Source: Allobosea sp. 117
GTDB taxonomy: Bacteria; Pseudomonadota; Alphaproteobacteria; Rhizobiales; Xanthobacteraceae
Assembly (NCBI RefSeq): GCF_000702305.1
Contig: NZ_JNLC01000014.1
Coordinates: 124,001-188,000 of the forward strand
Direction of reading: 5' to 3'
Length of the DNA: 64,000 nt
The notes beneath the pieces were generated by a model, which was not told where the DNA came from, ran no database searches, and saw only the letters and a program-made list of their open reading frames with translations. The position numbers and the translations under genes were made by a program. Positions 5,695 to 23,077 of this stretch are shown piece by piece; within the stretch, counting starts at the first letter, position 1, and every line of letters begins with the position of its first letter.

Positions 5695-5720
5695 TTTTGC
5701 TTCCTCCAGTGAAATGCCCC

Positions 5721-5749
5721 AGTATAAGTTTCTAAGAAACTTATAAGAA
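5721..5749 (-). promoter_or_regulatory. pqqA promoter: direct-repeat operator and -10 box
   Basis: On the minus strand two 7-bp direct repeats, TTCTTAT (5749-5743) and TTCTTAG (5738-5732), are separated by AAGT. They are followed after 5 nt by TATACT (5726-5721), a good sigma-70 -10 box. This leaves a leader of about 20 nt to the pqqA ATG. There is no good -35 box: the repeats occupy that place, as in promoters activated by OmpR/PhoB-type regulators. The same stretch contains a perfect 23-nt palindrome (5723-5745). Function is inferred. Confidence 0.6.
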
Positions 5750-5886
5750 GCATCTTTGCTCTACGGCACCAGATGCCGCAGTAATACTCTGGTGTTCGAC
5801 ACAGGAAACGTCAAGATCAGTTTGATGTTAATCTATGTCGACAATATGCCAAGCGGCAATACTGCACCGCAATATGATCCGACCAC

Positions 5887-6576
5887 TCACGCGGGTACCG
5901 GCTCGAACATGAAGCCGCGTCCGCGCACGGTGACGATGAGGCGCCCGCCATCGGGCATCGCCTCGGCCAGCTTGTGGCGCAGATAGCCGACATAGACATC
6001 CACCACGTTCAGCGAGGCCCCGCCATGGCCCGCCCAGAGCGCCGAGAAGATGTCGGCGCGGGCCAGCGGCTCGCCGGAATGGCGCATGAGCAGCGCCAGC
6101 AGCTCCACCTCGCGCTCGGTGAGGCGCACCCGGGTGTCGCCCGCCTGCGCCTGCCGCGTGTCGAGATCGAGGGTCAGCGGCCCGGCGCTCAGCACGCGCG
6201 GCTCGCCCTCCCCGGTGCTGCGGCGCAGGGCCTGCACCTTCACCCGCGCCAGCAGCTCCTCGAATGCGAACGGCTTCACGATGTAGTCATCGGCGCCGGC
6301 GAGCAGGCCCTCGGTGCGCTCGTTCACACTGGAACGGGCCGAAAGCATGATGATCGGCGCGGTCTGGCCGGCGGCACGCAGAGCCTTGCACACATCGATG
6401 CCGGAGCGGCCGGGCAGCATGACGTCGAGGATGATCGCCTCCAGCGGCTTGCCATTGGCCGCGCGCAAGGCCTGCTCGCCGTCGCCGACGAGCTCCACCT
6501 GGTAGCTCTCCGAAGCGAAGCCGCGCCGCAGCAGCGAGCCGATGTCGGCATCGTCCTCGACGATCAATATGGTCAT
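5887..6576 (-). CDS. OmpR-family response regulator
   Basis: 229 residues; start at ATG 6576 (MTILIVEDDADIGSLLRRGF). The receiver domain (about 1-120) has the acidic pair EDD, the phosphoacceptor Asp in AIILDVMLPG, and the conserved Lys in DDYIVKPFAFEELLAR. The C-terminal winged helix (about 130-225) has the OmpR-type recognition region VRLTEREVELLALLMRHSGEPL and the wing VDVYVGYLRHKLAEAMPDGG. It overlaps the histidine kinase stop (ATGA) and sits upstream of pqqA on the same strand. It may act on the direct repeat in front of pqqA; that link is inferred. Confidence 0.93.
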   Translation of the reverse strand: MTILIVEDDADIGSLLRRGFASESYQVELVGDGEQALRAANGKPLEAIILDVMLPGRSGIDVCKALRAAGQTAPIIMLSARSSVNERTEGLLAGADDYIVKPFAFEELLARVKVQALRRSTGEGEPRVLSAGPLTLDLDTRQAQAGDTRVRLTEREVELLALLMRHSGEPLARADIFSALWAGHGGASLNVVDVYVGYLRHKLAEAMPDGGRLIVTVRGRGFMFEPVPA

Positions 6577-8240
6577 TGCGCAGCCTCCAGAATGAGAGCC
6601 GGGGCCAGCGCCGGAAGGCGCAGCGTCACGACGGTGCCCTCCGCCGGAGCATCCCGGCCCGGCCCGCGGTCGCGCGCCGCATCCTCGCGCGTCCGGCTTT
6701 CGATACCGATCGTGCCGCCATGAGCTTCGACGATCCATTTCGCAAGCGCGAGACCGATACCAAAACCCGAGCCCTCACGCCCCCCGCCTGCACCGCGCCA
6801 GAAGCGCTCGAAGACGTGCGGCAGCTCGTCGCGGGGAATGCCCTCTCCATAGTCCCGCACCGTGATCACCGCCTGGCTCCCCTGCCCGGTAGCCGCGATT
6901 CGGATCACGGCTCCAGCCGGGGAATGGCGCACGGCATTGGCGACGAGCCCGTCCAGCACCTGACGCAGCCACTCCCGGTCGGCGTCGACCGCGAGCTCCG
7001 GCGGCGGCGCATCGACCTCCAGCGTCATGCCGGCGGCCCGCACCACCGGCAGCACGCTCTCGGCCGCCTCGGCGATCAGATCGGCGACCGGCAGCAGATG
7101 CCGGTCGAGCTCGATCTGGCCGGTCTCCGAACGGGCGATCCGCAACAGGTCCTCGACGCGGCGGTGCAGGCGGCGGGCACGCGACTGGATGACCAGCAGG
7201 GCCGCCCTCAGGTCGTCCGGCTGCGGCGCGCCCTGGCGGAGCGTCACCTCGGCCTCGCCGAGGATGACGGTGAGCGGCGTGCGCAGCTCATGGCTGACAT
7301 CGGTGAAGAACCGCCGCCGCGCCTGATCGACATTTTCCAGCCGCTCATTGGCGGCGCGCAGCTCGACCGTGCGCGCGTCGACGATCTCCTTGAGCCGCTG
7401 CTGGTCGGCGACGAGGCGCGCCTCGCGGCGGGCGAGATGGGCGGCCATGCGGTTGAAGCGGACCATGGCGAGGCTCAGCTCGTCGTGGCCGGTGACGGTG
7501 AGGCGCGTATCCGACCGCCCCTTGGCGATCGCGGCCGCGGCGGTGGCAACCTCCGCCACCCGGTGCACCAGCGAGCGCCCGAGCAGCTGATAAAGAGCGA
7601 TCGCCGCCAGGAAGACGAAGGCGACGCCGGCAAGGCCCCAATGGACCGCCTGCTCACGCAGGCTGTGGACGGCCGCCTGCGCCGCCTGCGCGGTCACGCG
7701 CTCCTCCTCCATCGCGATTCCGAGCGGCGCGCCGAAACCGGCGGCGAAGACGTCGAGCGCCACCCGCACCCCGGCCTGGGGATCGGGAGTGGCCAGCGCT
7801 TCGGAAATCTGCCGGTTGAGGCTTTCGAACTGGGCGTTGAGACGCGCCACGGTGCGGCTGCGCGCCGCCATCATGGTGCGCTGCTCCTCGCCGCTGAGCC
7901 GCGCGACATCCTCGCCCAGTGCGGTCTCGAAACGCTGGAAGGAGTCGCGGACCCGCTCGCGCGCGCCGTCGAGCCGGTCGCCGTCGAAACCGGGGGCCTG
8001 CGTCGCCTGCAAAGTCACGAGCGCATAGTCGCCGACGCGGCCCGACAGGCTGGAGAGCAGCTCCAGCCGCTTCTGCGCGCCGACGAGCCGCTCCACCTGA
8101 TCGTTGGCCGCCCCCAGCGCCACGACGAGCGCCGCCGAGGCCGCCGCCGTGACGAGCACGGCGATGGCCAGTAGCAGCGCCATGCGCGCGCGCAGGGAAG
8201 AGAGATTCAGCCGCACCATGCCGGCGGTGTCCCGGATCAT
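6573..8240 (-). CDS. membrane sensor histidine kinase
   Basis: 555 residues. Membrane segment near 18-42, a periplasmic helical sensor region of about 155 residues (glutamine/arginine-rich heptads, four-helix-bundle style), a second membrane segment near 200-222, then a HAMP linker. The HisKA dimerisation helix has the phosphorylated His in DVSHELRTPL near residue 318. The ATPase domain has an N box (LVANAVRHSP), G1 (DYGEGIP) and G2 (GFGIGLAL). It is paired by overlap with the response regulator. ATG 8240 is used, but 8219 also gives a complete first membrane helix. The stimulus is unknown; methanol, lanthanide or PQQ state would fit the location. Confidence 0.93.
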   Translation of the reverse strand: MIRDTAGMVRLNLSSLRARMALLLAIAVLVTAAASAALVVALGAANDQVERLVGAQKRLELLSSLSGRVGDYALVTLQATQAPGFDGDRLDGARERVRDSFQRFETALGEDVARLSGEEQRTMMAARSRTVARLNAQFESLNRQISEALATPDPQAGVRVALDVFAAGFGAPLGIAMEEERVTAQAAQAAVHSLREQAVHWGLAGVAFVFLAAIALYQLLGRSLVHRVAEVATAAAAIAKGRSDTRLTVTGHDELSLAMVRFNRMAAHLARREARLVADQQRLKEIVDARTVELRAANERLENVDQARRRFFTDVSHELRTPLTVILGEAEVTLRQGAPQPDDLRAALLVIQSRARRLHRRVEDLLRIARSETGQIELDRHLLPVADLIAEAAESVLPVVRAAGMTLEVDAPPPELAVDADREWLRQVLDGLVANAVRHSPAGAVIRIAATGQGSQAVITVRDYGEGIPRDELPHVFERFWRGAGGGREGSGFGIGLALAKWIVEAHGGTIGIESRTREDAARDRGPGRDAPAEGTVVTLRLPALAPALILEAAQ

Positions 8241-8309
8241 CCGACCGTCGAACCTGGCGAAATGATTTCATGTCCGCGTCGCATGCGCACGCTGCACCGC
8301 AACAGAAAC

Positions 8310-8330
8310 GCGGCCGCGCCCGGCGGCCGC
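8310..8330. terminator. hairpin after the 83-residue exported protein gene
   Basis: Perfect 8-bp arms GCGGCCGC (8310-8317 and 8323-8330) around a 5-nt loop, followed on the minus strand by GTTTCTGTT. It sits between the minus-strand gene ending at 8374 and the kinase gene start, so it probably ends that transcript. The T tract is weak. Confidence 0.5.
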
Positions 8331-8373
8331 TTTCCCGGTTGCAGCGCAGCGAAATGCGCGTGGATCGGCGTCC

Positions 8374-8625
8374 TCAGCCCTTCACCGCCTTCTTCCCGTC
8401 GCTGACGAAATCGAGGCACTCGTCATATTCCTTCTCGCCGAGCTCGCGCTCGGCGCCCTTGAGCGCCTTGTTCAGCTTGTCGAGCGTCACCTTCTGCGGC
8501 TTCTTGGCGATCTCCGCCTTCAGCACGGCGATGCCGTCGCTGCATTCCTTCGCCTCGTCGGCGAGCGCGAAGGACGCGCCGGCGCAGAGCGTGGCTCCGG
8601 CAAGAAGAAGGGTGGCGAGCTTCAT
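8374..8625 (-). CDS. small exported protein of unknown function
   Basis: 83 residues: signal peptide MKLATLLLAGATLCAGASFA, cut near LADEA, then about 60 charged helical residues (ECSDGIAVLKAEIAKKPQKV, LNKALKGAERELGEKEYDEC). Two cysteines in the mature part could pair. A GGGAGGATA-like site precedes the ATG. It lies 57 nt after the cupredoxin-like gene on the same strand and is probably co-transcribed with it. No known family of defined function is recognised; a periplasmic accessory protein of quinoprotein metabolism is a guess. Confidence 0.7.
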   Translation of the reverse strand: MKLATLLLAGATLCAGASFALADEAKECSDGIAVLKAEIAKKPQKVTLDKLNKALKGAERELGEKEYDECLDFVSDGKKAVKG

Positions 8626-8682
8626 GGCGGTATCCTCCCGATGGATGTTCTTGGTCGTCGATTACTTGTCGGCACGGGCGCT

Positions 8683-9129
8683 TTATTTGACCGTGATGGT
8701 CCCCTTCATGCCCTTCTCCTCCAGCCCCTCGATCCACCAGTCATACTTGCCGGGCCGGATAGTGACGAATTCGAGCGAGATGGTGCCCGCATCGTCGAAC
8801 TCGATGTGGTGCGGGGGGCCGTAGGGATGGATTTCCAGATGATTGATGACGATCTGGTTCATCCAGATCATGCGGAAGAACTCGGGCGCCATGAACTTGT
8901 ATTCCTTGCCGCCGTTGGACGTGACGTCCAGGCGGTAGGACTTGCCCGATTCCATCTCGATGTCCTTGACGGACACCACGAAGTCGTTGCCGCTGGTGTC
9001 GCCGAGCACGATCTCCGGCAGGTTCTGGCGGCCCTTCACAAGGTCGCCCGCGCTCGCGCCGCCGGCCACGAGCCCGGCACACAGCGTCGCGGCCAGCGCG
9101 AGGCCGGCACGCAGTGGCGTCTTCTTCAT
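8683..9129 (-). CDS. cupredoxin-like periplasmic protein lacking the copper-site cysteine
   Basis: 148 residues with signal peptide (MKKTPLRAGLALAATLCAGL, mature from about GDLVKG). The mature part has a cupredoxin-like beta-barrel pattern: ESGKSYRLDVTSNGG, then a C-terminal WWIEGLEEKGMKGTITVK strand pair. It resembles the protein encoded at 16486-16926. Where that paralogue has a cysteine (WFCKGMEARGM) this one has isoleucine (WWIEGLEEKGM), so a normal type 1 copper site is not possible. A His-rich segment (NHLEIHPYGPPHHIEF) could bind metal. Probably an accessory periplasmic protein of the methanol system. Confidence 0.75.
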   Translation of the reverse strand: MKKTPLRAGLALAATLCAGLVAGGASAGDLVKGRQNLPEIVLGDTSGNDFVVSVKDIEMESGKSYRLDVTSNGGKEYKFMAPEFFRMIWMNQIVINHLEIHPYGPPHHIEFDDAGTISLEFVTIRPGKYDWWIEGLEEKGMKGTITVK

Positions 9130-9260
9130 GCGATCCTCCTGGCGTTGCTTGCGCGCTTGGAAGGAGCGGCGACGAACCGACGCTCCCCCCGCGCGAATTC
9201 TTCCGCCGGGAAGCTAGAGACGCCATTGTTTGCTGTCTAGTGAATTGATTCTTATGAATA

Positions 9261-9300
9261 ATTTATGATCGACCGCCCAATGGGCGGCGCGATCATAAAT
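9261..9300. other. 40-bp near-perfect palindrome
   Basis: Outer arms ATTTATGATCG (9261-9271) and CGATCATAAAT (9290-9300) pair perfectly. Inner arms CCGCCCA (9273-9279) and TGGGCGG (9281-9287) also pair. It lies between the minus-strand gene ending at 9362 and the start of the cupredoxin-like gene at 9129, and is AT-rich on its lower-coordinate side. It could be the terminator of the 9362-9571 gene or an operator. An imperfect TTCTTAT-GAAT-AATTTAT repeat (9249-9266) runs into it on the plus strand. Confidence 0.5.
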
Positions 9301-9361
9301 CGGATGGCGGGGAGCCGCGGCGCGGCGAAACCATTCGCCGACGCCGCCACTCGACTGCCGC

Positions 9362-9571
9362 TCAGATGTCGCGCTCGACGGTGCCGGGACGGCCGCAACG
9401 ATATTTCGTCACGCGCCACTTCGGATGGGATTCCGACCATTCGGCGATCACCGGCTGGGCGCCCATCATGCACTGGATCGGGAGGGAGACCTGTTCGAGA
9501 TTGAGGGACAACGCTTCTTCCTTGCAGACGCCCGGCGACGCAACAAGACAGATCGACAGTATAAGCTCCAT
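9362..9571 (-). CDS. small conserved hypothetical protein
   Basis: 69 residues starting MELILSICLVASPGVCKEEA. The hydrophobic N-terminus may be a short signal or anchor. Four cysteines occur (ICLV, GVCKEE, IQCMMG, YRCGRP). The segment IQCMMGAQPVIAEWSESHPK looks like a family I recall among small uncharacterised alphaproteobacterial proteins, but no function is known to me. It stands alone between two longer non-coding stretches. Base composition and codon use match a real gene, though it is short. Confidence 0.6.
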   Translation of the reverse strand: MELILSICLVASPGVCKEEALSLNLEQVSLPIQCMMGAQPVIAEWSESHPKWRVTKYRCGRPGTVERDI

Positions 9572-10126
9572 GGCTGGACCCTTCGGATTTGGACCTGGCT
9601 ATTCGAGCGTTTTCCCTAGACACCGTCAGAGCAGCAATTTGTATGCCAGATACCAAGTCGCAAGCCCGAGTGACGGAACCGGCGGCCAGCACTCATGCTG
9701 CAATGCAACATTCTAAGGGTGCGCAACAAGGGATTGCAATCCCCCGCTATCGGCCCGTCATAGTGAGCGGCTACGCTGCGCTGCGGGCGACGGTCAAAAA
9801 CTGTGCGGCGGAGACCCGCGGCTGACCAATCGCTCGGCACCGCGGCCGATGCGCGACGGAGTGTCGCGAAAAGTCCCGCCGGTGTGCCGTTCCTCCCGTC
9901 CCGTCATGGCCGATGCGTCGAAAACACCCGGGAAAGCAGTATTTTCAACGAAGATTCCCTTGCAGGACGTCGCGATGCGGCACTAGTCTCGCGCCCGTGA
10001 CGTGTCTGGTCGTGCTATCGGGCCAACCGGTTTGGTGTGTCAAACGCTGCAACAAAGATAGCCGGGACATTCGGAGAGGGCGGATCCCTTCCCTCGATTG
10101 ATCAACCCCGTATTGGGAGGATTTAG
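9572..10126. promoter_or_regulatory. upstream region of fae, no gene seen
   Basis: About 555 nt without a convincing coding region; open frames here are short and lack ribosome sites. It must hold the promoter of fae. A TTGCAG box followed after 17 nt by CTAGTC (around 9960-9990) is a weak sigma-70 candidate. A GTTTG-N6-CAAAC inverted repeat lies near 10030-10045. A strong GGGAGGA site lies just upstream of the fae ATG. Confidence 0.4.
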
Positions 10127-10633
10127 ATGGCCAAGATCAACAAGGTTCTGATCGGCGAGTCGCTCGTGGGCGACGGCAACGAAGTAGCCCATATCGACCT
10201 GATCATCGGACCGCGCGGCAGCGCGGCGGAAAGTGCTTTCGTCAACGCGCTGACCAACAACAAGGACGGCTTCACCTCGCTTCTCGCGGTGGTGACCCCG
10301 AACCTGCTGGCCAAGCCGAACACGATCCTGTTCAACAAGGTCACGATCAAGGACGCCCGCCAGGCGGTGCAGATGTTCGGACCGGCGCAGTACGCGGTCG
10401 CCAAGGCGGTCGTGGATTGCGTCGCCGACGGCACCATCCCGGAGGAGGAAGCCGACGACCTGTTCATCTCGGTCGGCGTGTTCATCCACTGGGAAGCGGC
10501 GGACGACGCCAAGATCCAGAAGTTCAACTACGAAGCCACCAAGGAAGCCCTCAAGCGCGCCGTCGCCGGCGAGCCGAAGGCCCGCGACGTGATCGCGCAG
10601 TCGTCGACCGCCAAGCATCCCTTCGCGGCTTAG
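10127..10633 (+). CDS. fae: formaldehyde-activating enzyme Fae
   Basis: 168 residues. Fae condenses formaldehyde with dephospho-tetrahydromethanopterin to methylene-H4MPT, the entry to formaldehyde oxidation in the cytoplasm. The N-terminus [19 protein letters not shown] carries the catalytic His22, and the segments [20 protein letters not shown] and [20 protein letters not shown] are typical. The ribosome site GGGAGGA is strong, as expected for an abundant enzyme. It stands as a single gene closed by a repeated terminator. After its TAG stop the same frame stays open for 30 codons (see next entry). Confidence 0.97.
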
Positions 10634-10726
10634 ATCGGAAGCAACCCTGGGCAGCCAAAAGCTCCGCCCGCGGCCCCGCCGAAGGGCCTGCTCCAGCGGT
10701 TGGCGGCGATCTTCCTCGACAAGTAA
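10634..10726 (+). other. in-frame open tail behind the fae amber stop
   Basis: Directly after the fae TAG the same frame reads 30 sense codons to a TAA at 10724-10726. The predicted tail has a Pro/Ala linker (PKAPPAAPP) and then an amphipathic helix-like end (KGLLQRLAAIFLDK). There is no start codon of its own. It may be chance, a lost C-terminal extension or a readthrough product. No other gene is seen between 10634 and 10920. Confidence 0.35.
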
Positions 10727-10794
10727 GGGCGGCGCGTCCGCCCGGGCTTCGCGTAGATCAAGCGGCTCTGCCGCTTCATGACCGCCGACTCACC

Positions 10795-11634: not shown

Positions 11635-11644
11635 GGGTGCGCGC

Positions 11645-12430: not shown

Positions 12431-12438
12431 GGCGCCGG

Positions 12439-13955: not shown

Positions 13956-14090
13956 GCCGCATCGCCTCCCGGCGAATTGTCGTTGTCTGTTGAAGTGATC
14001 ATATCGGGGGCACCGTCTCCCGCAACCGACGACATTCAAAATTCCGTCAAGCTGCGACAGAAGTTCCCAGAATTGGCAGGAACTTTCAAA

Positions 14091-14120
14091 CTCTTATTAA
14101 TTTCTTATGCGATCTATTCT
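14091..14120 (+). promoter_or_regulatory. direct-repeat promoter of the PQQ-associated ABC operon
   Basis: Plus strand: CTCTTAT (14091-14097), spacer TAAT, TTCTTAT (14102-14108), 6 nt, then TATTCT (14115-14120) as a -10 box. The geometry nearly matches the pqqA promoter (7-4-7 repeats, 5-6 nt, -10 box, no -35 box). It lies in the divergent gap between the DUF3280 gene and the binding protein gene. Regulation by an OmpR-type activator is inferred. Confidence 0.55.
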
Positions 14121-14204
14121 GTTGAACACTTGATTTCGTTTGGTACTCTTCTGCCGGCGGCGGCATTACCTTAGGTCAAACACTAGCCGCGGGAAGAAAT
14201 GCCA

Positions 14205-15437
14205 ATGAGACGGATGGCTCACGCCGCTGCTGGCGCGGCCGTGCTGGCCCTTGCGGCCCTCGCGCCCGCCACCGGCGTGCATGCGCAAAGCGAGGCGCCG
14301 CCAGCGGCCACGCCGCAGAACGCCGCCCCGCAGGCGCAGACCTTCCACATCGGCGTGGTACGCCAGATGCCCGAGCAGCCGCCATGGGTGGCGCCGCTGA
14401 TGGCGCCGCCGGAAGACCTCGGCATCGCCGGAGCCCAGCTCGGCATACGCGACAGCCTGACCAGCGGGCGCTTCCTCAAGCTCGACTACAAGCTCGAGAC
14501 CGAGATCGTGCCGACCGACGGCGACCCGCTGCCCGCCGCGCAGAAGCTGGTCGAGGCCGGCAACAGCTTCCTCATTCTCGACGTGCCGGCGGACCAACTG
14601 CTCAGGATCGCCGACGCGCTGAAGGACAAGGATGTCCTGATCATCAATGCCGGATCGGCCGACGACCGGCTGCGGCAGGAGGACTGCCGCGCCAACGTGT
14701 TCCATGTCGCGCCCAACCGCGCCATGCTCACCGACGCGCTGGCGCAGTTCCTGATATTCAAGCGCTGGCGCAACTGGTTCCTGATGGTCGGGCGCACCGA
14801 CAATGACAAGCTCTATGCCGAGGCGGTGCGCCGCTCGGCCAAGAAGTTCGGCGCCAAGATCGTGGCGGAGAAGACCTGGGACTATGGGCCGGATGCACGC
14901 GCCACCGCCCAATCCGAGGTGCCGCGCGGAACCCAGGTCGGCGAGTACGACATCCTCGTCGTCGCCGACGAGCTTGGCGAATTCGGCGACATCCTGCCCT
15001 ACAACACCTGGCTCGCCCGGCCCATCGCCGGCACGCAGGGGCTGATGCCGCTCTCCTGGCATCCGACCATGGAGAACTGGGGCGCCTCGCAGCTACAGAG
15101 CCGCTTCTTCAAGCAGTCCAAGCGCTTCATGCAGACGCTGGACTTCCAGATGTGGGAAGGCGTGTTCGCCATCGGCTCGGCCGGGCTCAAGACGCGCTCC
15201 AACGACCCGAAGGCGATCCGCGCGCTGATGCTGTCGTCTGGCTACGACCTGCCGGTGTTCAAGGGCGTGGCCGCGAGCTTCCGCGACTGGGACCACCAGC
15301 TCCGCCAGCCGATTCTGCTCACCCACGCCACCAACACGGTCACGCTGTCGCCGCAGCAGGGCTACCTGCACCAGCGCACACCACTCGACACGCTCGGCTT
15401 CGACAAGCCCGAGACTGCCTGCAAGCTCGACAAATAA
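14205..15437 (+). CDS. PQQ-dehydrogenase-associated ABC transporter substrate-binding protein
   Basis: 410 residues. ATG 14205 is preferred to 14199 because GGAAG lies 8 nt away. The signal peptide MRRMAHAAAGAAVLALAALA is cut near VHAQSE. The mature protein resembles branched-chain amino acid binding proteins (periplasmic type I fold): KRWRNWFLMVGRTDND, RSAKKFGAKIVAEKTWD and GEYDILVVADELGEFGDILP. It matches my memory of the family linked to PQQ alcohol dehydrogenase systems. First gene of the plus-strand operon to 19.36 kb. Comparable loci in Methylorubrum are needed for lanthanide use; that role here is inferred. Confidence 0.85.
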   Translation: MRRMAHAAAGAAVLALAALAPATGVHAQSEAPPAATPQNAAPQAQTFHIGVVRQMPEQPPWVAPLMAPPEDLGIAGAQLGIRDSLTSGRFLKLDYKLETEIVPTDGDPLPAAQKLVEAGNSFLILDVPADQLLRIADALKDKDVLIINAGSADDRLRQEDCRANVFHVAPNRAMLTDALAQFLIFKRWRNWFLMVGRTDNDKLYAEAVRRSAKKFGAKIVAEKTWDYGPDARATAQSEVPRGTQVGEYDILVVADELGEFGDILPYNTWLARPIAGTQGLMPLSWHPTMENWGASQLQSRFFKQSKRFMQTLDFQMWEGVFAIGSAGLKTRSNDPKAIRALMLSSGYDLPVFKGVAASFRDWDHQLRQPILLTHATNTVTLSPQQGYLHQRTPLDTLGFDKPETACKLDK

Positions 15438-15457
15438 GACGATCCTGGGAGGAAGAT

Positions 15458-16447
15458 ATGACGATCCGCACCCTGCCCGCTGCCGGCTTCGCGCTGTTCG
15501 CCGGGACCCTTCTCGGGGTCAGCGCGCTGCCGGCGCAGGCGCAGGTCCGCGCCTTCATCTCCAACGAGCGCGATCACACCATGAGCGTGATCGACATGGA
15601 CAGCCTGAAGGTGATCGAGACGGTGAAGACCGGCCGGCGCCCGCGCGGCATCACCGCGAGCCCCGACGGCAAGCTGATCTATCTGTGCGCCTCCGACGAC
15701 AACCGCGTCGAGGTCTACGATTCCAAGACCCTGAAGCTGGTGAAGACGCTGCGTTCCGGGCCGGACCCCGAACTCTTCGTGCTCGCGCCGTCCGGCAACC
15801 CGCTCTACATCGCCAATGAAGACGACAACATGGTCACCGTCGTCAATGTCGACAACAACGAGCTGGTGGCGGAGATCCCGGTCGGCGTCGAGCCGGAAGG
15901 CATGGCGGTCAGCCCGGACGGGCGGTTCCTGGTGAACACCTCCGAGACCACCAACATGGCGCATGTGATCGACACCAAGAGCAACGAGATCGTCGAGAAC
16001 ATCCTGGTCGATTCGCGCCCGCGCTACGCCAAGTTCAACACCGACAACACCCAGCTCTGGGTCAGCTCGGAGGTCGGGGGAACCGTCGCGGTGGTCGATC
16101 CCAAGACGTGGAAGATCACCAAGAAGATTTCCTTCGAGATCCCCGGCGTGAACAAGGACGCCATCCAGCCGGTCGGCATCCGCATCACCAAGGACGGCTC
16201 CAAGGCCTTCGTGGCGCTCGGCCCGGCCAACCGGGTCGCCGTGATCAACGCCAAGACGCTGGAGGTGGAGAAATATCTGCTGGTCGGCCAGCGCGTCTGG
16301 CAGCTCGCCTTCACCCCCGACGAGAAGCTGCTGCTCTCCACCAACGGCAACTCGAACGACGTCTCGATCATCGACGTCGCCAGCGAGAAGGTGACCAAGT
16401 CCGTCGCTGTCGGCCGCCTGCCCTGGGGCGCGGTGGTGGTGCCGTAA
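15458..16447 (+). CDS. PQQ-catabolism-associated YVTN beta-propeller protein
   Basis: 329 residues with a signal peptide (MTIRTLPAAGFALFAGTLLG, cut near AQAQVR). Seven YVTN-type blades of about 42 residues follow, with repeats such as GRRPRGITASPDGKLIY, VEPEGMAVSPDGRFLV and RVWQLAFTPDEKLLLS. A strong GGGAGGAAG site fixes the start. The family is regularly found with PQQ dehydrogenases and this ABC transporter; its ligand is unknown. It lies 20 nt after the binding protein gene and is secreted to the periplasm. Confidence 0.88.
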   Translation: MTIRTLPAAGFALFAGTLLGVSALPAQAQVRAFISNERDHTMSVIDMDSLKVIETVKTGRRPRGITASPDGKLIYLCASDDNRVEVYDSKTLKLVKTLRSGPDPELFVLAPSGNPLYIANEDDNMVTVVNVDNNELVAEIPVGVEPEGMAVSPDGRFLVNTSETTNMAHVIDTKSNEIVENILVDSRPRYAKFNTDNTQLWVSSEVGGTVAVVDPKTWKITKKISFEIPGVNKDAIQPVGIRITKDGSKAFVALGPANRVAVINAKTLEVEKYLLVGQRVWQLAFTPDEKLLLSTNGNSNDVSIIDVASEKVTKSVAVGRLPWGAVVVP

Positions 16448-16485
16448 TCGTCCGTGCAAGCCAACAAAGCCCCGAGGAGGAACCG

Positions 16486-16926
16486 ATGAAGTGCACCCTG
16501 GCCGCCGCCGCGCTCGGCGCCGTCGCCCTGTCCGCCGCCATTTCCACAACCCCTGCGCTCGCCACCGGCGACCTCGCGCTGAAGCCGATCGAGCTCAAGG
16601 AGCTGGTGGTCGGCGAAGGCGAATCCGGCTTCGGCGTCTCGCAGAAGACCTATGAGCTGGAGACCGGCAAGGCCTACCGGCTGATGATCAAGTCCACCGG
16701 CAACAAGGAATGCGCCTGGCAGTCGCCGGGCCTCTCGCAGAACATCTGGCTGCGCAAGGTCGAGGCGGGCGGCATGGAGATCAAGGCGGTGCATCTCATC
16801 GAGCTCGAATTCGAGGATGCCGGCGAGGCCGAAATCTTCTTCGTGCCGGTGCGCACCGGCACCTTCAAATGGTTCTGCAAGGGCATGGAAGCGCGCGGCA
16901 TGGAAGGCGAGTTCGTGGTGAAGTGA
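16486..16926 (+). CDS. cupredoxin-like periplasmic protein
   Basis: 146 residues with a signal peptide (MKCTLAAAALGAVALSAAIS, cut near ALATGD). The GAGGAGGAA site before ATG 16486 is strong. The fold pattern is cupredoxin-like (LETGKAYRLMIKSTGN, then FKWFCKGMEARGMEGEFVVK). Cys in WFCKGME with the following Met resembles a copper-binding loop, but the usual His ligands are not obvious. The N-terminal half aligns by eye with the 8683-9129 product. A hairpin terminator follows, so the ATPase gene downstream may be less transcribed. Confidence 0.78.
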   Translation: MKCTLAAAALGAVALSAAISTTPALATGDLALKPIELKELVVGEGESGFGVSQKTYELETGKAYRLMIKSTGNKECAWQSPGLSQNIWLRKVEAGGMEIKAVHLIELEFEDAGEAEIFFVPVRTGTFKWFCKGMEARGMEGEFVVK

Positions 16927-16958
16927 GCGCGCCGGAACCTTGAAGGGTCCATGATCGT

Positions 16959-16983
16959 CATCCCCGGCCATGCGCCGGGGATG
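16959..16983 (+). terminator. intrinsic terminator or attenuator inside the ABC operon
   Basis: Perfect 10-bp stem CATCCCCGGC (16959-16968) and GCCGGGGATG (16974-16983) with a 5-nt loop, followed by TCTTTTC. It lies between the cupredoxin-like gene and the ABC ATPase gene and could lower expression of the transporter relative to the periplasmic proteins. The core resembles common alphaproteobacterial intergenic repeats. Confidence 0.6.
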
Positions 16984-17023
16984 TCTTTTCGGAAGACGCG
17001 GATTGCCGCAGCGGAAGCATCGG

Positions 17024-17812
17024 ATGCAGACCGAGCTCGACAGGTTGGACGCCGCATCGGCCGCCGCGAAGCCGCCGCCGGCGCTCGAGGTGCGCCATGT
17101 GAGCCACGTCTTCGGCGCGCGCAGGGCGCTGGACGACGTCAGCCTCGCCGTGCCGGCCGGCAGCTTCACCGCTCTGCTCGGCCCCAACGGCGCCGGCAAG
17201 ACGACGCTGTTCTCGCTGATCACCCGGCTCTACGACAACCGCACCGGCTCGATCCGCGTGCTCGGGCACGACGTGCGGCGCGAGCCGGCGGCGGCGCTCA
17301 GCCAACTCGGCGTGGTGTTCCAGGCGCGCACGCTCGACCTCGACCTCACCGTCACGCAGAACCTCGTCTATCACGCGGCGCTGCACGGCATCGGCTTTGC
17401 CCGCGCCCGCGTCCGGGCCCGCCAGGTGCTCGAGCAGGTCGGCCTCGCCGATCGTGCGAAGGACAAGGTGCGCCAGCTCTCAGGCGGGCAGATGCGACGG
17501 GTCGAGATCGCCCGCGCGCTGGTGCACCGGCCCTCCCTGCTGCTGCTCGACGAGCCGACCGTGGGCCTCGACATCAGCTCGCGCGCCGCCCTCGTCGCCG
17601 AGGTGCGGCGGCTGGTGGCGAGCGAGGGCCTAGGCGTGCTGTGGGCGACGCACATCATCGAGGAGATCGAGCCTGGCGACCGCGTCATCGTGCTGGACAA
17701 GGGCCGGGTGCGCGCCGAGGCCGGCTATGCCGAACTCGTCGGGGCGGCCGGCGACCTCTCCGCCGCCTTCCTCGCCCTCACCGCCGGGCCGGACGCGGGA
17801 GGCGAATCGTGA
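17024..17812 (+). CDS. ABC transporter ATP-binding protein, PQQ-dehydrogenase-associated
   Basis: 262 residues from ATG 17024 (GGAAG upstream). Walker A GPNGAGKTT, Q loop VVFQARTLDLDLT, signature LSGGQMRRVEIARA, Walker B LLLLDEPTVGLD and switch His in WATHIIEEIE are all intact. It resembles ATPases of ABC-2 exporters of the NodI/CcmA type. It overlaps the permease start by 4 nt (GTGA), so the two form one transporter. The context implies movement of a compound linked to PQQ or lanthanide-dependent alcohol oxidation. Confidence 0.9.
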   Translation: MQTELDRLDAASAAAKPPPALEVRHVSHVFGARRALDDVSLAVPAGSFTALLGPNGAGKTTLFSLITRLYDNRTGSIRVLGHDVRREPAAALSQLGVVFQARTLDLDLTVTQNLVYHAALHGIGFARARVRARQVLEQVGLADRAKDKVRQLSGGQMRRVEIARALVHRPSLLLLDEPTVGLDISSRAALVAEVRRLVASEGLGVLWATHIIEEIEPGDRVIVLDKGRVRAEAGYAELVGAAGDLSAAFLALTAGPDAGGES

Positions 17813-18657
17813 GCTTCGTACCCGAGCGCCGCGGCGGGCGGCTGACGTTCTCCGGCTATCTCGTCTGCCTCGCCGGCATCTGCTGGCGCGAGGGGCTGCG
17901 CTTCGTCAACCAGCGCGGCCGCTTCCTCTCGGCGCTGGTGCGCCCGCTGGTGTGGCTGTTCATCTTCGCCGCCGGCTTCCGCTCGGTGCTCGGCGTCTCG
18001 ATCATCCCGCCTTACGAGACCTATGTGCTCTACGAGGTCTATGTGGCGCCGGGGCTGGTGGCGATGATCCAGCTCTTCAACGGGCTGCAGTCCTCGCTGT
18101 CCATGGTCTATGACCGCGAGGTCGGCGCCATGCGCATCCTGCTGGTCAGCCCCTATCCGCGCTGGTTCCTGCTGCTGTCGAAGCTGATCGCCGGCATCTG
18201 CGTGTCGCTGCTGCAGGTCTACGCCTTCCTGGTGGTGGCGTGGTTCTGGGAGGTGGAGGCGCCGCCGATCGGCTATCTGACCGTGCTGCCGGCGCTCCTC
18301 CTCACCGGCCTGATGCTCGGCGCCATGGGACTGCTGATGAGCTCGCTGTTCCGCCAGCTCGAGAACTTCGCGAGCGTGATGAACTTCGTCATCTTCCCGA
18401 TGTTCTTCACCTCCTCGGCGCTCTACCCGCTCTGGCGGGTGCAGGAGAGCAGCCTCGTCCTCTACTATATCTGCCTGTTCAACCCCTTCACCTATGCGGT
18501 GGAGCTGATCCGCTTCGCGCTTTACGGGCAGTTCGACGCCTTCTCGGCGCTCGTCGTCGCCGCCTGCGCGCTGGTGTTCCTGATCGGGGCAATCATCGCC
18601 TATGATCCCTCCGCCGGCATCATGGCCCGCCGCGGCGGGCCGGACGCGGCCAAATGA
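17809..18657 (+). CDS. ABC-2 type transporter permease, PQQ-dehydrogenase-associated
   Basis: 282 residues from a GTG start overlapping the ATPase stop. Six membrane helices are visible, for example PLVWLFIFAAGFRSVLGV, CVSLLQVYAFLVVAWFW, ALLLTGLMLGAMGLLMSS, FVIFPMFFTSSALYPLW and FSALVVAACALVFLIGAI. The segment MRILLVSPYPRWFLLLSKL is the usual ABC-2 coupling region. ABC-2 permeases are mostly exporters, so the pairing with a periplasmic binding protein gene is unusual but typical of this PQQ-linked group. Confidence 0.9.
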   Translation: MSFVPERRGGRLTFSGYLVCLAGICWREGLRFVNQRGRFLSALVRPLVWLFIFAAGFRSVLGVSIIPPYETYVLYEVYVAPGLVAMIQLFNGLQSSLSMVYDREVGAMRILLVSPYPRWFLLLSKLIAGICVSLLQVYAFLVVAWFWEVEAPPIGYLTVLPALLLTGLMLGAMGLLMSSLFRQLENFASVMNFVIFPMFFTSSALYPLWRVQESSLVLYYICLFNPFTYAVELIRFALYGQFDAFSALVVAACALVFLIGAIIAYDPSAGIMARRGGPDAAK

Positions 18658-18695
18658 ACAAGACCACAACGAACAAGATCAACTGGGAGACGCCA

Positions 18696-19358
18696 ATGAT
18701 CTCAGCCATCCCATGCCTGCCGCTCGCGCGCAGCCGTCTGGCCCGCGGACTTCTGATCGGCGCCCTGCTCGGTTTACCCGCCCTCGCGCCGGCTCCCACC
18801 GCGGCGGCGTCGCCCCAGGCGGGAAGCCTGTGGCCCTGCATCCAGCCGCGCGTCGCCAGCCTCGCCGCCGCGCAGATGTGGGCCGGCCCGCCGGTGGAGG
18901 GCCTCGCCTGGCGCGACGACGACAAGGTGGCCGGGCTGGTTCCCGTGCTGGCGGCGCGGCGCACCTCGATCGAGGACGCCAGCGCGCAGATCGAGGCCTT
19001 CGCCAAGGAGGCCGGGCCGCAGAAGAAGGAAAGGCTGACGCTGCTCTTCGCCGGCGTGTTCGACCAGATCAACACGCTGCGCTCGCGCATCCTCTCCGGC
19101 ATCGAGCGCTATTCGCAGCACCAGATCGACCTCGCCGCGCGCATCAAGGAGGAGAGCCTCGCCCTCGCCAAGGCGAAGAAGGCGGCCACCACCGACGAGG
19201 AGAAGACCAAGGCGGCCGAGATGGAGAAGCAGCTTCTCTGGGACACCCGCATCTACGACACCCGCACCCAGCAGGTGACGGCGGTGTGCGAGAGTCCGGT
19301 GATCCTCGAGCAACGCGCCTTCGCCATCGCCCGCGCCATCCAGAACGTGATGGAATGA
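18696..19358 (+). CDS. exported helical protein of the PQQ-associated ABC operon
   Basis: 220 residues from ATG 18696, preceded by GGGAG at good spacing; an earlier ATG at 18654 overlaps the permease stop (ATGA) and would add 14 polar residues. Signal peptide ARGLLIGALLGLPALAPAPT. Mature part mostly helical with strong charge (AARIKEESLALAKAKKAATT) and two cysteines (LWPCIQ, TAVCESPV). No catalytic motif recognised. Last gene of the operon; its stop abuts the stop of the opposing gene. Probably a periplasmic partner of the transporter. Confidence 0.75.
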   Translation: MISAIPCLPLARSRLARGLLIGALLGLPALAPAPTAAASPQAGSLWPCIQPRVASLAAAQMWAGPPVEGLAWRDDDKVAGLVPVLAARRTSIEDASAQIEAFAKEAGPQKKERLTLLFAGVFDQINTLRSRILSGIERYSQHQIDLAARIKEESLALAKAKKAATTDEEKTKAAEMEKQLLWDTRIYDTRTQQVTAVCESPVILEQRAFAIARAIQNVME

Positions 19359-19949
19359 TCAGCGGCTGCGCAGCCGCGTGAGCACATAGACGATGATCAG
19401 CAGGTGGAGCACCAGCGCGACGGCGAGGCCGAATGCGTGCTGGGCGAACCCAACCTCTGGTAGCGCTCCGACGACGAAGATGGTCGCCAGACTCAGCGGC
19501 AGGAACAGCGCGACCGCGGTGACGAGGCCGGGATTGTAGACGCCGAGACGCGCTCGCGCGCCGATATGGGTGATGCCATTCACCAGCATCGCATAGGGCG
19601 CGACGAGACCCCAGCCGGGCCCGAAGGCGAGCGCCGCATAGAGCGCGGCGAGATTGAGCCCCCACACCACCGGGACATTGATGACCAGCACGGCGGCGAC
19701 GCTGAGCGCATCGCGCCCGCCGAACACGCGCCCGTTGGCGAAGGAGCGGAAGCGGTCGCCGGTGTGCTCCTCGACCTGATGCACCATATAGCCGGGGCTG
19801 TGCAGAAAGATCAGCAGGAGCGGCAGCGGCATCACCGTCGCGAGGGCAGGCGTGAGCGCGAGCAGCGCGGCCGCCATGAAGCCGGCGCCCGTGACCCAGT
19901 GCTCGGCGAGCCATACCCAGCCGCGCAACCGTTCCGATAGGCCCGCCAT
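19359..19949 (-). CDS. HXXEE-domain membrane protein
   Basis: 196 residues with five or six membrane helices (GAGFMAAALLALTPALATVM, DALSVAAVLVINVPVVWG, GLVTAVALFLPLSLATIFVV, FGLAVALVLHLLIIVYV). The name-giving motif is seen as HQVEEH after the second helix, with further polar residues at helix ends (NGITHIGAR). Function of the family is unknown. It is the last gene on the minus strand after the xox block; 58 nt separate it from the methyltransferase stop. Link to methanol oxidation is uncertain. Confidence 0.8.
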   Translation of the reverse strand: MAGLSERLRGWVWLAEHWVTGAGFMAAALLALTPALATVMPLPLLLIFLHSPGYMVHQVEEHTGDRFRSFANGRVFGGRDALSVAAVLVINVPVVWGLNLAALYAALAFGPGWGLVAPYAMLVNGITHIGARARLGVYNPGLVTAVALFLPLSLATIFVVGALPEVGFAQHAFGLAVALVLHLLIIVYVLTRLRSR

Positions 19950-20007
19950 GCAGCGCCCCGACGCGATGATTCGCGCTCATGGTAGCTGCCCCGATATCGC
20001 CAGACCG

Positions 20008-20787
20008 TTAAGCGGGGCTGCGCTGACCCCACACCGCGACGCCGCCGCCGCCGAAGCCCCAGAAATCGGGGGATTTGAGCAGGAGCAGCGCCTCGTCGAG
20101 CCGCTCGCCACTCATCGCGCCCGAAGACAGCATGCGCTCGCGCATCTGGTCGGCCGTAAGGGCGAAGAACTCGGCGACCGGCGAGCCGCCCTGGATCACC
20201 GAGAAGTCCCCCTCCCCGCCGACCCGCTCCAGCCCCATGGTCGCGACCATCTGCGGCAAGGCGCGGGCCCAGAAGCAGTCCCGGCCGGACGCCTTCACCA
20301 CCGTATCGGTCAGCGCCACCATGAAGTCCCGGTAAAGACCGGAGGACGAGGTGTGGACCGGGAAGAAGTCGACCTCCTCCAGCAGCAGCCAGCCGCCCGG
20401 CTTCAGCGCCTCGACCATCCGGCGCACGGCGCGCTCGGGCTCTGGAAGATGGTGCAGCAGCCAGCGCGTGTGCACGAAATCGAACTCCGCCGGCGGCAGC
20501 GGGTCCGCCATGATGTCGTGCGTGCGTGTTTCCAGGTTGGGATGTTCGAGGCCATCGAGCAGGGCGGTGTTGATGTCGGTCGCCACCACATGGCCGGACG
20601 GGCCGACCTGCGCGCACAGCCACCGCGCGACGGAACCGCCGCCCGCACCGACTTCGAGGCAGCGCGCGCCGGGCCCGAGACCGAGCGCGGTCAGGCGCCG
20701 CATCGTCATCGGATCGAGCAACTGCTCCAGAAGCGCCAGACGCCGATTCGCCTGGTTCCAGGAATTGTCGAGCGCATAGCCTGACAT
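20008..20787 (-). CDS. class I SAM-dependent methyltransferase
   Basis: 259 residues; ATG 20787 used because the longer frame needs a TTG. The Rossmann core has motif I as LEVGAGGGSVARWL, the acidic ribose-binding residue in VVATDINTALL, motif II/III as FDFVHTRWLLHHLPEP and ALKPGGWLLLEEVDFF. The LLHHLPEPERAVR segment is typical of small-molecule methyltransferases of the UbiE/phthiotriol type. It lies 85 nt after the CXXCW gene. Substrate unknown; nothing ties it to C1 metabolism except position. Confidence 0.85.
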   Translation of the reverse strand: MSGYALDNSWNQANRRLALLEQLLDPMTMRRLTALGLGPGARCLEVGAGGGSVARWLCAQVGPSGHVVATDINTALLDGLEHPNLETRTHDIMADPLPPAEFDFVHTRWLLHHLPEPERAVRRMVEALKPGGWLLLEEVDFFPVHTSSSGLYRDFMVALTDTVVKASGRDCFWARALPQMVATMGLERVGGEGDFSVIQGGSPVAEFFALTADQMRERMLSSGAMSGERLDEALLLLKSPDFWGFGGGGVAVWGQRSPA

Positions 20788-20872
20788 GGGCCGCCCCTGC
20801 CCCGTCGACAACCATGGGTATCATCATAGGCGAAATGCGCGTGCGCGCCAATGCGCCGCGAAGATCGCGACG

Positions 20873-21556
20873 TCAGCCTGCCGGCCGTGTCCAGGGATGC
20901 GCTTCTTCCAGCGGCAGGCCGGCCTTGGCCCAGCCGTCGCTACCGGCGGGATACCAGGCGACGCGGGTGAAGCCGTAGCCGAGCGCGCGCTTGGCCGCAT
21001 TCCATGACATCCAGCAATCGGTCTGGCAGTAGAAGACCAGCGGCGCATCGCGGCGCCCGCCGGTGAGCGCGTCGAGGCCGGCGCGGAAATAGCCGTCGAC
21101 CTCGGCATTCAGCGCGCCATAGCCGACATTGGGGAGCCAGGCGCTGCCCGGCAGATGGTCGCGCCGCTTGTCGCGCCAGAGGGTACCGGCCGGAAGGTTG
21201 GCAGGCTTCACGTCGCGGGGCATGACGTCGACGAAGATCGCGCTCTTGTCGCGCCATGCGCGTTCGGCAGCGACGGTGTCGAGCACCTTCGCGCCGCGCA
21301 GCGTCGGCGGCGTCGGCGCGCGGTATTCCTCCATGCGGTAGCCGTCGGGCTCGGCCACGGGAGCGGGCCCCTCGGCGAGCGCCGGGAAGGCGAGCAGCGC
21401 CAGCGCGAGGCCGGCCATGCCGAGCCAGGCGAGGCGCACAGGCGAAGCCGCCTCATCCGGCGCCGGCCGCTTGTCCCCCGAAGCTTCCGTCAGGGACCAT
21501 CGGCCGGGGTGCCCCGCGCGGTCCGACAGGCGGGCCGACGCGGGATGCTTCGTCAT
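20873..21556 (-). CDS. PQQ-dependent catabolism-associated CXXCW-motif protein (rhodanese-like)
   Basis: 227 residues with a long basic N-terminus (about 40 residues) before the hydrophobic segment LAWLGMAGLALALLAFPALA. The mature part is rhodanese-like: KSAIFVDVMPRDVKPANLPA, then the active-site loop YCQTDCWMSWNAAKRAL with the two cysteines and Trp that name the family, and a C-terminal VAWYPAGSDGWAKAGLPLEE. Rhodaneses carry sulfur or other groups on a cysteine, so it may act with the SoxYZ-like carrier. Start overlaps the xoxJ stop (ATGA), placing it in the xox operon. Confidence 0.88.
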   Translation of the reverse strand: MTKHPASARLSDRAGHPGRWSLTEASGDKRPAPDEAASPVRLAWLGMAGLALALLAFPALAEGPAPVAEPDGYRMEEYRAPTPPTLRGAKVLDTVAAERAWRDKSAIFVDVMPRDVKPANLPAGTLWRDKRRDHLPGSAWLPNVGYGALNAEVDGYFRAGLDALTGGRRDAPLVFYCQTDCWMSWNAAKRALGYGFTRVAWYPAGSDGWAKAGLPLEEAHPWTRPAG

Positions 21557-22434
21557 TTACCCGCCTCCAGCGGCCGGTTCTGCTCGTCGAGCAGCGGCAC
21601 ACCAAAGTCGAGAAGGATGCGGTTGATCTCCGGCTGCGCCTCGGTGATGAAGGTGTTGAGCTGGTGCTTCCAGTTCAGCTCGCCGGGCCGGATGCCGAAG
21701 GTGATGCGGTAGACCATGGCCGGATCACCGCGCTCCTTGACCAGCGGCACCACCGCCAGCGGCGCCTCCGAACGGCGCGCGTAATAGCCGCCGATCGGCC
21801 CCCACAATATGCCGGCGTCGATGGTGCCGGCATTGATGTCGGCGATCATCTGCTCGGCCGGGCTCTCGTAGCGCCGGTCGACGGTGAGCGCATAGGGGCG
21901 GGCAAAGCCCATCAGTCCATTGCGGGCTAGCGCGTCGGCCGGCGGGGTGCCGGCGACGACGCCGATGTGCTGACCCTTGAGGCGCGGATCGGCCAGCGCG
22001 TCGACACCGTCGAGCGGGCTGTCCTTGCGGTAGATCAGCACCCAGGCCGACTTGTAATACGCGTTGGTGTTCAGCACCGGATCGCCGCCGGCGACATAGC
22101 CCATGACGATGTCGCAGCGCTTGGCACCGAGCGTCATGCGGTAGAAGCCGGTGGCCTGCGGAAACCACGTGTAGTCGAGCGTGATGCCGAGCTTCTTTGC
22201 CAGCAGTTCGGCGATCTTGTTCTCGAATCCCTCGCCCTTCTCGTCGGTGAAGGGCATGTTGGCGGGATCCGCGCAGACCCTCAGGGTCGAGCGGTCGACG
22301 AGATCGGAGACCTGGGCGCGGGCGGCCGGCGTGCCGGCCAGCAGCCCGGCGGCCAGCGCCGCGAGGGCCGCAGCCCTCAGGCCACCGCGCCGCTCAGTTA
22401 GACCGGCCGAAGCACTGGTTCTCATTGTCGCCAT
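21553..22434 (-). CDS. xoxJ: XoxJ, periplasmic binding protein of the lanthanide methanol dehydrogenase
   Basis: 293 residues from ATG 22434, or 290 from 22425; neither has a clear ribosome site. Signal peptide LRAAALAALAAGLLAGTPAA cut near RAQVSD. The mature protein is of the MoxJ/XoxJ solute-binding type: LRVCADPANMPFTDEKGEGF, DIVMGYVAGGDPVLNTNAYY, AEQMIADINAGTIDAGILWG. It is thought to help activate the XoxF enzyme, not to serve a transporter. Overlaps xoxG by about 40 nt and the CXXCW gene by 4 nt. Confidence 0.9.
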   Translation of the reverse strand: MATMRTSASAGLTERRGGLRAAALAALAAGLLAGTPAARAQVSDLVDRSTLRVCADPANMPFTDEKGEGFENKIAELLAKKLGITLDYTWFPQATGFYRMTLGAKRCDIVMGYVAGGDPVLNTNAYYKSAWVLIYRKDSPLDGVDALADPRLKGQHIGVVAGTPPADALARNGLMGFARPYALTVDRRYESPAEQMIADINAGTIDAGILWGPIGGYYARRSEAPLAVVPLVKERGDPAMVYRITFGIRPGELNWKHQLNTFITEAQPEINRILLDFGVPLLDEQNRPLEAGK

Positions 22435-22984
22435 ACGCCTTCGTCTTGTCCTCGCGCTTGGAGGGACGCTCGCGACCGAGCGCGCCGTCGGCACGTGCCT
22501 TGAGATAGACGTAGAGGTCGTCGAGATAGCACATCACGTTCAGGTTCTCGCCGAAAGCCGGCATGACCTGGTCCGCGGTGCCGACGCCGATCGTCTTCTT
22601 GCCGTTGACCACCGTCTCCATGAACTGCTCATAGGTCAGGGTCTTCAGCGAATTGGCGAGGGCCGGGGCGTAGGTCGAGCCCATGCCGTCCGGGCCGTGG
22701 CAAACGTGGCACTCGGCGTGATAGCGGCGGTAGCCGCTGTAGGTGTACCAGTCGAGCGTGCCGTCGGAACCGATATGGTAGGTCGGCGTGCCGTCCGGCA
22801 GCGTGTACTTGCCCAGCTCGTCCTTGGTCGCCTGAGCCTGCGCCTCGCTCGCCGGGGCGGCGGCGGGGGCCGGCTGCTGGGCGGAGGCCGGCACGGACGG
22901 CAGGGCGAGCACGACGGCCAGCAGCACCGAGGCCACGACCGACGCAGCACCAGAAATCGACCGTCCGAAAACAGAATTCGTCAT
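22394..22984 (-). CDS. xoxG: XoxG, c-type cytochrome electron acceptor of XoxF
   Basis: 196 residues; signal peptide SVVASVLLAVVLALPSVPAS, then an Ala/Pro/Gln linker. One heme site CHVCH and a likely axial Met in QVMPAFGENLN. The segment YRRYHAECHVCHGPDGMGST is typical of the cytochrome cL-like XoxG that takes electrons from PQQ in XoxF. The C-terminal part (DKTKAYGDNENQCFGRSN) has an extra Cys. Separated from xoxF by 209 nt holding a hairpin and a direct repeat that may be its own promoter. Confidence 0.93.
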   Translation of the reverse strand: MTNSVFGRSISGAASVVASVLLAVVLALPSVPASAQQPAPAAAPASEAQAQATKDELGKYTLPDGTPTYHIGSDGTLDWYTYSGYRRYHAECHVCHGPDGMGSTYAPALANSLKTLTYEQFMETVVNGKKTIGVGTADQVMPAFGENLNVMCYLDDLYVYLKARADGALGRERPSKREDKTKAYGDNENQCFGRSN

Positions 22985-23059
22985 GGGGTCACTCCCGAAG
23001 GGACAGGGCCCGGATTCGGGTCCGATTGGCCGGACAGGGCGGCCTTCGGACCGGTTATC

Positions 23060-23077
23060 TTAAGAATCTCATAAGGC
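23060..23077 (-). promoter_or_regulatory. direct repeat upstream of xoxG
   Basis: Minus strand: GCCTTAT (23077-23071), spacer GAGA, TTCTTAA (23066-23060). It has the same 7-4-7 layout as the repeats before pqqA and the ABC operon, and lies 76-93 nt ahead of the xoxG start. A clear -10 box at the same spacing is not seen, so an independent promoter is only suggested. Confidence 0.4.

Follow-up and report, generated by a model that had tools for sequence, protein, structure and literature searches.

A TTCTTAT direct repeat shared by pqqA, a PQQ-associated ABC operon and methanol dehydrogenase genes in Allobosea sp. 117: a putative operator and two structured leader RNAs

Introduction

Are the synthesis of pyrroloquinoline quinone (PQQ), a transport system associated with it and the methanol dehydrogenases of a methylotroph read by one regulator through one DNA site? 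The question is raised by a 64,000-nucleotide stretch of the genome of Allobosea sp. 117 (contig NZ_JNLC01000014.1, positions 124,001 to 188,000 of the forward strand; the whole stretch is called the window here), in which two heptamers of TTCTTAT type, 4 bp apart, stand before pqqA, before a PQQ-associated ATP-binding cassette (ABC) operon and before xoxG. A preliminary description of this DNA proposed that the three repeats define one regulon of PQQ, ABC and xox genes. From comparison of sequences, one shared cis-element at pqqA, the PQQ-ABC operon and the methanol dehydrogenase genes is well supported, because the pairs are kept throughout the genus, exact matches in other genera fall on the same targets, the mxaF locus belongs to the set and the place of the element before xoxG is kept.

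Results

Heptamer pairs in the window and in the genome

All three 7-4-7 repeats claimed for pqqA, the ABC operon and xoxG are present, and a weaker fourth pair was found. Pairs were scored against TTCTTAT-N4-TTCTTAT (14 positions):

5732 to 5749, minus strand: pqqA pair, TTCTTAT-AAGT-TTCTTAG, within the predicted pqqA leader, 13/14
14091 to 14108, plus strand: PQQ-ABC pair, CTCTTAT-TAAT-TTCTTAT, upstream of the operon, 13/14
23060 to 23077, minus strand: xoxG pair, GCCTTAT-GAGA-TTCTTAA, degenerate, between xoxF and xoxG, 11/14
9249 to 9266, plus strand: weaker pair, upstream of and antisense to a small secreted-type gene (8683 to 9129), 11/14

Operators of the OmpR/PhoB family that consist of direct repeats are of the pho box type. 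The pairs described here have the two conserved heptamers, the direct orientation and the 11-bp spacing of that class, and in pqqA leaders the information content peaks within the heptamers. The genome scan that had been proposed as a check, run with the preliminary description's own pattern, gave a divided answer. In the 4.64-Mb genome there are two exact matches, the pqqA and ABC sites, and since these are the only ones both sites are exceptional; with up to two mismatches allowed, the pattern is found 13 times and its reversed control 18 times, which leaves the xoxG site, by its sequence alone, at background.

Conservation within the genus

A tighter pattern, TCTTATNNNNTTCTTAK, allowed up to one mismatch, gave 118 matches in 30 genomes of the genus against 33 for the reversed control. 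Every one of the 30 carries two sites on opposite strands 7.2-10.4 kb apart, and in all 15 genomes with the genes mapped these are the sites at pqqA and the ABC operon; the repeat before orthologous pqqA genes, the conservation of which had been put forward as a check, is therefore kept.

The element extends to a locus on another contig. In the mxaF-mxaZ intergenic region (the name mxaZ was assigned from position) the Allobosea genome has one pair on the plus strand (G000:C3:77743-77760) and one on the minus strand (78016-78033). Of 13 genus loci, 12 have two such opposite-strand pairs, which span 288-308 bp from end to end, and the remaining locus has a single pair. Between xoxF and xoxG the element stands in the same place in 13/13 genus sequences, the window included, at 9-12/14, and it is missing from the corresponding gap of L081, the sole gap of another genus examined; conservation before orthologous xox genes thus holds for the xoxG position within the genus and fails in L081. 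Taken as a claim of one regulon, the original proposal is a good one: it is supported for pqqA and the ABC operon and gains mxaF-mxaZ. Of its three sites xoxG is the weakest, and xoxF has just single inverted heptamers.

Just upstream of the xoxG element we noted, by eye, a GC-rich inverted repeat, GGGGCCTGGC...GCCAGGCCCC (23096-23133, minus strand), present in 13/13 genus gaps and not in that of L081. No T run follows it; it is perhaps an mRNA end or an attenuator.

The region upstream of the small secreted-type gene contains an antisense match of 11-13/14 within 420 bp in 6 of the 7 loci examined. This gene, on the minus strand, adjoins the kinase gene described below, and neither NCBIfam nor Pfam matched its product at E 0.001. 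The product is related (36% identical) to a second small secreted-type protein, whose gene, 16561-16923 on the plus strand, lies inside the ABC operon.

Conservation in other genera

Ten genomes of two other genera, in which the regulator encoded beside pqqA (see below) is 54-58% identical, were searched likewise. The exact matches number 21 and fall without exception on pqqA (10, one in each of the ten genomes), the ABC operon (8) or mxaF (3), and four of the one-mismatch matches are also at the ABC operon (1) or mxaF (3). Nine Methylobacterium pqqA leaders contain pairs such as GTCTTAgGATCTTCTTAr, scoring 10-12/14. A scan of the 700 bp around mxaF, which had no control of its own, gave one or more matches of 11/14 in 18 of 24 further loci. 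As a separate observation, three genomes (G160 C1:32598, G041 C32:111352 and G113 C31:40904) have a further one-mismatch site, TCTTATGAACTTCTCAG, at a distance of about 3.4 kb from that of the ABC operon.

Position of the pairs relative to predicted promoters

All promoters discussed here are predictions from sequence. Those of the window are:

14122 to 14149, plus strand: predicted ABC promoter, TTGAAC-16-TACTCT; TTGAnn-16/17-TAnnnT in 15/15 genus sequences
5785 to 5814, minus strand: predicted pqqA promoter, TTGACG at 5814-5809 and, about 17-18 bp on, a less clear −10 region
25227 to 25282, minus strand: xoxF promoter region, inverted heptamers AATAAGA...TTCTTATT (25282-25251) and predicted −35/−10 TTATTG-17-GTCTAG (25255-25227)

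At the ABC operon the heptamer pair stands exactly 13 bp upstream of the predicted −35 in 15/15 genus sequences, which, given that promoter, is an activator's geometry. At pqqA, TTGACG is found upstream of the pair in all 15 genus sequences (13 by alignment, two read separately), and because this box stands further upstream the pair lies inside the predicted leader; its distance to the start codon is 28-51 nt in 35 leaders. This position agrees with an older strain AM1 start site, which a table in PMC9320726 places 95 nt upstream of pqqA, with CGATATacctccgG; that promoter string (PpqqD) is present in Methylobacterium sp. R2-1, again upstream of the pair. The same table also cites newer differential RNA sequencing in strain DM4, with no start directly upstream of pqqA.

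Before mxaF, AAGACA or CAGACA is conserved in 13/13 loci, and 18 nt on there is AACAAT or a hexamer close to it; the AM1 mxaF promoter is given as AAGACA-18-TAGAAA in PMC9320726. The proximal mxaF pair lies just past the predicted start, in antisense orientation, and comparable antisense matches occur near the start of several Methylobacterium mxaF genes. The xoxF promoter region was delimited from an alignment of 13 genus sequences and its promoter called by eye. There TTCTTATTG overlaps the predicted −35, with the inverted AATAAGA upstream; these are single heptamers, not a direct pair. With respect to the predicted promoters, placement upstream of or over the −35 is therefore seen at the ABC operon and, with one heptamer, at xoxF, whereas the pqqA pair and the proximal mxaF pair are downstream.

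It had been suggested that the element replaces a −35 box, with a −10 box following at 5-6 nt. Strings resembling a −10 box do follow the pqqA and ABC pairs in the Allobosea genome; however, the one at pqqA, TATACT, is found in just 3 of 15 genus leaders, the ABC operon has its conserved −35/−10 13 bp beyond the pair and the pqqA pair is downstream of TTGACG. We therefore reject −35 replacement and consider activation or repression that depends on position the likelier arrangement.

A palindrome of the type GGGAA-N3/4-TTCCC was also noted by eye, upstream of mxaF in most of the 13 loci (L119-L136) and upstream of 8 of 15 aligned ABC operons (L069, L072-L076, L078, L079). A search of the window for its N4 form alone gave chance level. 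It is perhaps the site of another regulator, for example a LuxR-type MxaX.

The pqqA pair lies in a covarying hairpin

The pqqA leader contains two dyads:

5714 to 5754, minus strand: hairpin H2, with the heptamer pair in its 5' arm and loop
5764 to 5779, minus strand: small upstream inverted repeat H1, varying in sequence with the dyad kept, seen by eye

We folded 35 leaders from loci with pqqA near the regulator gene, L163 and L164 being left out because the pattern for pqqA did not catch them. As we read the folds, the minimum-energy structure places the pair in a hairpin, with z of -1.4 to -6.2 relative to mononucleotide shuffles. The arms of H2 covary: paired with their own partners they reach a mean of -15.6 kcal/mol against -9.8 kcal/mol when swapped, and 0/1000 re-pairings were as low. 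TCTTA of both heptamers is near invariant (1.8-2 bits) and the outer arms are variable. When the same test was applied to the other sites, no signal was seen at the proximal mxaF pair (407/500 re-pairings as low), the distal mxaF pair (370/500) or xoxG (177/500), and that at the ABC operon was marginal (10/500; -4.7 against -4.0 kcal/mol), so an RNA hairpin is not a general trait of the sites. We conclude that two constraints act on the pqqA repeat: it contains a sequence word that recurs at other promoters, and it takes part in an RNA structure peculiar to pqqA.

A structured RNA in the xoxF leader

A second leader RNA was found downstream of the xoxF promoter:

25088 to 25217, minus strand: conserved structured RNA, about 130 nt long, following the promoter and preceding the xoxF gene

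Rfam gave no match in the window at gathering thresholds and none for 24900-25500 at E values up to 5. A model built from 14 genus sequences was searched in 41 genomes and gave 18 matches at E < 0.001, seven in the genus and 11 outside it, from several families of the order; all 18 are directly before xoxF. Among weaker matches, four (L330-L333, E 0.03-0.21) are before xoxF and eight others (E 0.03-0.52) are not. In 31 aligned matches, 29 of them distinct, 22 of 38 pairs have changes on both sides, and covariation is 0.336 against 0.152 for shuffled and at most 0.112 for slid controls, in an alignment that had been fitted to the model. GTGACACG is invariant in 31/31 matches, and GUGACACG is an invariant string of the leader. 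Under strict filters, 308 genomes of the class gave the RNA in the Allobosea genome and in G256, there before xoxF, together with a single weak match that has no xoxF after it. A stretch of 21 bases from the leader, allowed up to two mismatches, is found in 11 of 397 genomes of the order and is exact in just two, both of the same genus as the window. The xoxF-leader RNA is likely to be a regulatory RNA, and is a candidate for a riboswitch or a part of the lanthanide switch.

Gene context

The genes to which the pairs are attached, and those of the candidate regulator, are as follows:

5617 to 5694, minus strand: pqqA, 25 codons and stop, read from its translation; pqqB, pqqC and pqqE follow on the same strand
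5887 to 6573, minus strand: OmpR/PhoB-type response regulator (Response_reg, Trans_reg_C), MxbM-like by position and similarity
6573 to 8240, minus strand: sensor kinase (HAMP, HisKA, HATPase_c), MxbD-like
14199 to 18657, plus strand: PQQ-ABC (Ped-type) operon, with a TIGR03863 binding protein, a TIGR03866 beta-propeller and an open reading frame with a TIGR03861 permease
24999 to 21553, minus strand: PQQ methanol/ethanol-type dehydrogenase (TIGR03075), TIGR03874 cytochrome and TIGR03871 protein

The domain matches bear out the earlier placing of an OmpR-type regulator gene and a kinase gene beside pqqA. The regulator has a receiver domain and Trans_reg_C, the HAMP-HisKA kinase gene is adjacent and the regulator gene directly adjoins pqqA; because domains and genomic place both agree with MxbD-MxbM we call the pair MxbD-MxbM-like. 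The Methylobacterium counterpart of the regulator is 53-56% identical and likewise adjoins pqqA.

The dehydrogenase encoded at 23194-24999 has WDYDG where the mxaF product has WDYAG. We take an additional Asp two residues past the catalytic Asp, Ala in MxaF, to be the marker of XoxF, and since the product has this Asp the names xoxF, xoxG and xoxJ are retained. By NCBIfam and Pfam, the mxaF locus comprises genes of mxaF, mxaJ and mxaG type and encodes a kinase with a MoxY domain as well as a LuxR-type regulator.

Discussion

We think it probable, though well short of certain, that TTCTTAT-N4-TTCTTAT is the operator of a single regulator that ties PQQ synthesis to the Ped-type ABC system and the methanol dehydrogenases. 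The binder would most likely be the MxbM-type OmpR/PhoB regulator whose gene adjoins pqqA, the MxbD-type kinase being its sensor, and the signal may be methanol, lanthanide or the state of XoxF. Position would set the sign of control. With the pair ahead of the −35, the ABC operon would be activated; genes with a pair after the predicted start, as at mxaF and pqqA, or with a heptamer that overlaps the predicted −35, as at xoxF, would be repressed or tuned. At mxaF the proximal pair and the far upstream pair on the opposite strand could cooperate through a DNA loop, and at pqqA the same sequence, as part of the leader-RNA hairpin, could provide a second layer of control.

In favour of this binder, the element goes together with the regulator. 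At the ABC operon, a match of at least 11/14 within 550 bp was found in 17 of 30 loci from genomes of other families that have the regulator (a Methylopila-like genus supplies 10 of the 17, and two are antisense only) and in 0 of 30 from genomes of the family without a close orthologue of the regulator. This is an association only, because the two groups differ in phylogeny.

Several observations weigh against the proposal. The genus has one exact match outside these gene sets (G198 C21:146683). In the Methylopila-like genus, whose regulator is 78-80% identical, just 2 of 7 mxaF loci have a match of 11/14 and the pqqA matches, at 10-11, are for the most part antisense; in Methylobacterium, 1 of 8 ABC loci has a match. 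Pairs past the mxaF start fit badly with the reported need of MxbDM for mxaF expression. In the ten genomes of other genera, matches with up to one mismatch number 33 against 25 for the reversed control, and the clean signal is limited to the exact matches, which have no exact-match control value alongside. The conservation of the pqqA pair could stem wholly from its hairpin, and a LuxR-type MxaX-like regulator gene adjoins mxaF in the Allobosea genome itself.

These last points each lend something to a rival explanation. With motif counts near background in other genera at one mismatch, and at background in the Allobosea genome at two, the pairs might reflect chance similarity of AT-rich DNA, or a general bending or nucleoid-protein site; the conservation in the genus and the fall of 21/21 exact other-genus matches on three gene sets speak against this, so that pure chance is disfavoured and the explanation as a whole strikes us as very improbable. 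It is rather doubtful, too, that the pqqA repeat is no operator and purely an RNA leader element, a hairpin with UUCUUA in its arm and loop that works at a step later than initiation, such as translation or the decay of the transcript. The covarying hairpin, confined as it is to pqqA, would be explained in this way, as would the position of the pair downstream of TTGACG and of the AM1 promoter string; however, the same pair stands upstream of a promoter at the ABC operon and on the other strand at mxaF, and TCTTA stays near invariant in both heptamers while the outer hairpin arms vary. Since sites are found on both strands, and also ahead of a promoter, a role as DNA fits, and not only one as RNA. 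Finally, the element might be read by a different regulator of the circuit, for example the LuxR-type MxaX, an MxcE-like protein or some other factor, the MxbM-like gene being a bystander. The mxaY-mxaX-like genes next to mxaF would suit this; however, a protein of LuxR/NarL type is not expected at 7-bp direct repeats 11 bp apart, and the element and the MxbM-like gene occur together before pqqA in five genera. We regard this alternative as unlikely, and the MxbM-like regulator as the presumed binder on grounds of sequence and position.

The proposed operator resembles known OmpR/PhoB operators in having two direct 7-bp half-sites whose starts are 11 bp apart and in lying next to the genes of a single regulon. 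It differs from them in its word, TTCTTAT, in standing also after predicted starts and on the opposite strand, in being part of an RNA hairpin at pqqA and in being known so far from sequence. In M. extorquens mxbM adjoins pqqA (PMC9320726), and MxbD-MxbM of Methylobacterium extorquens and M. aquaticum is like the pair described here in having the regulator directly beside pqqA, at the identity given above; what differs is that a common box is proposed here, the ABC operon included. MxbM is known to influence how mxa and xox genes are expressed (PMC5784242, PMC11845868): in AM1, mxbDM is necessary for mxaF expression (PMC5784242), and MxbM is apparently required for inhibition of the Xox system, the exact mechanism of the switch being described as unknown (PMC11845868). 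PedS2/PedR2 with PedA1A2BC of Pseudomonas putida offers a parallel in its Ped-type ABC operon and its rare-earth switch of PQQ dehydrogenases (PMC6115532). In the open-licence literature, as far as titles and the beginnings of abstracts go, there is no description of this box or of leader RNAs of pqqA or xoxF, and a binding site for MxbM was not found in the portions accessible.

Tentatively, the operator and the leader RNAs could be parts of a two-layer methanol/lanthanide switch in these alphaproteobacteria, which we regard as possible rather than probable. A single MxbM box would serve PQQ synthesis, the Ped-type transporter, mxa and xox, and the leader RNAs, namely the covarying, box-containing pqqA hairpin and the multi-branched xoxF RNA, would add a second layer, in which the xoxF RNA may sense lanthanide, PQQ or a related signal as a riboswitch. 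How calcium-dependent methanol dehydrogenase is exchanged for the lanthanide enzyme is unsolved; a conserved box with a short list of targets provides a testable binding site and regulon for the regulator, and the pqqA and xoxF leader RNAs are concrete candidates for the sensing.

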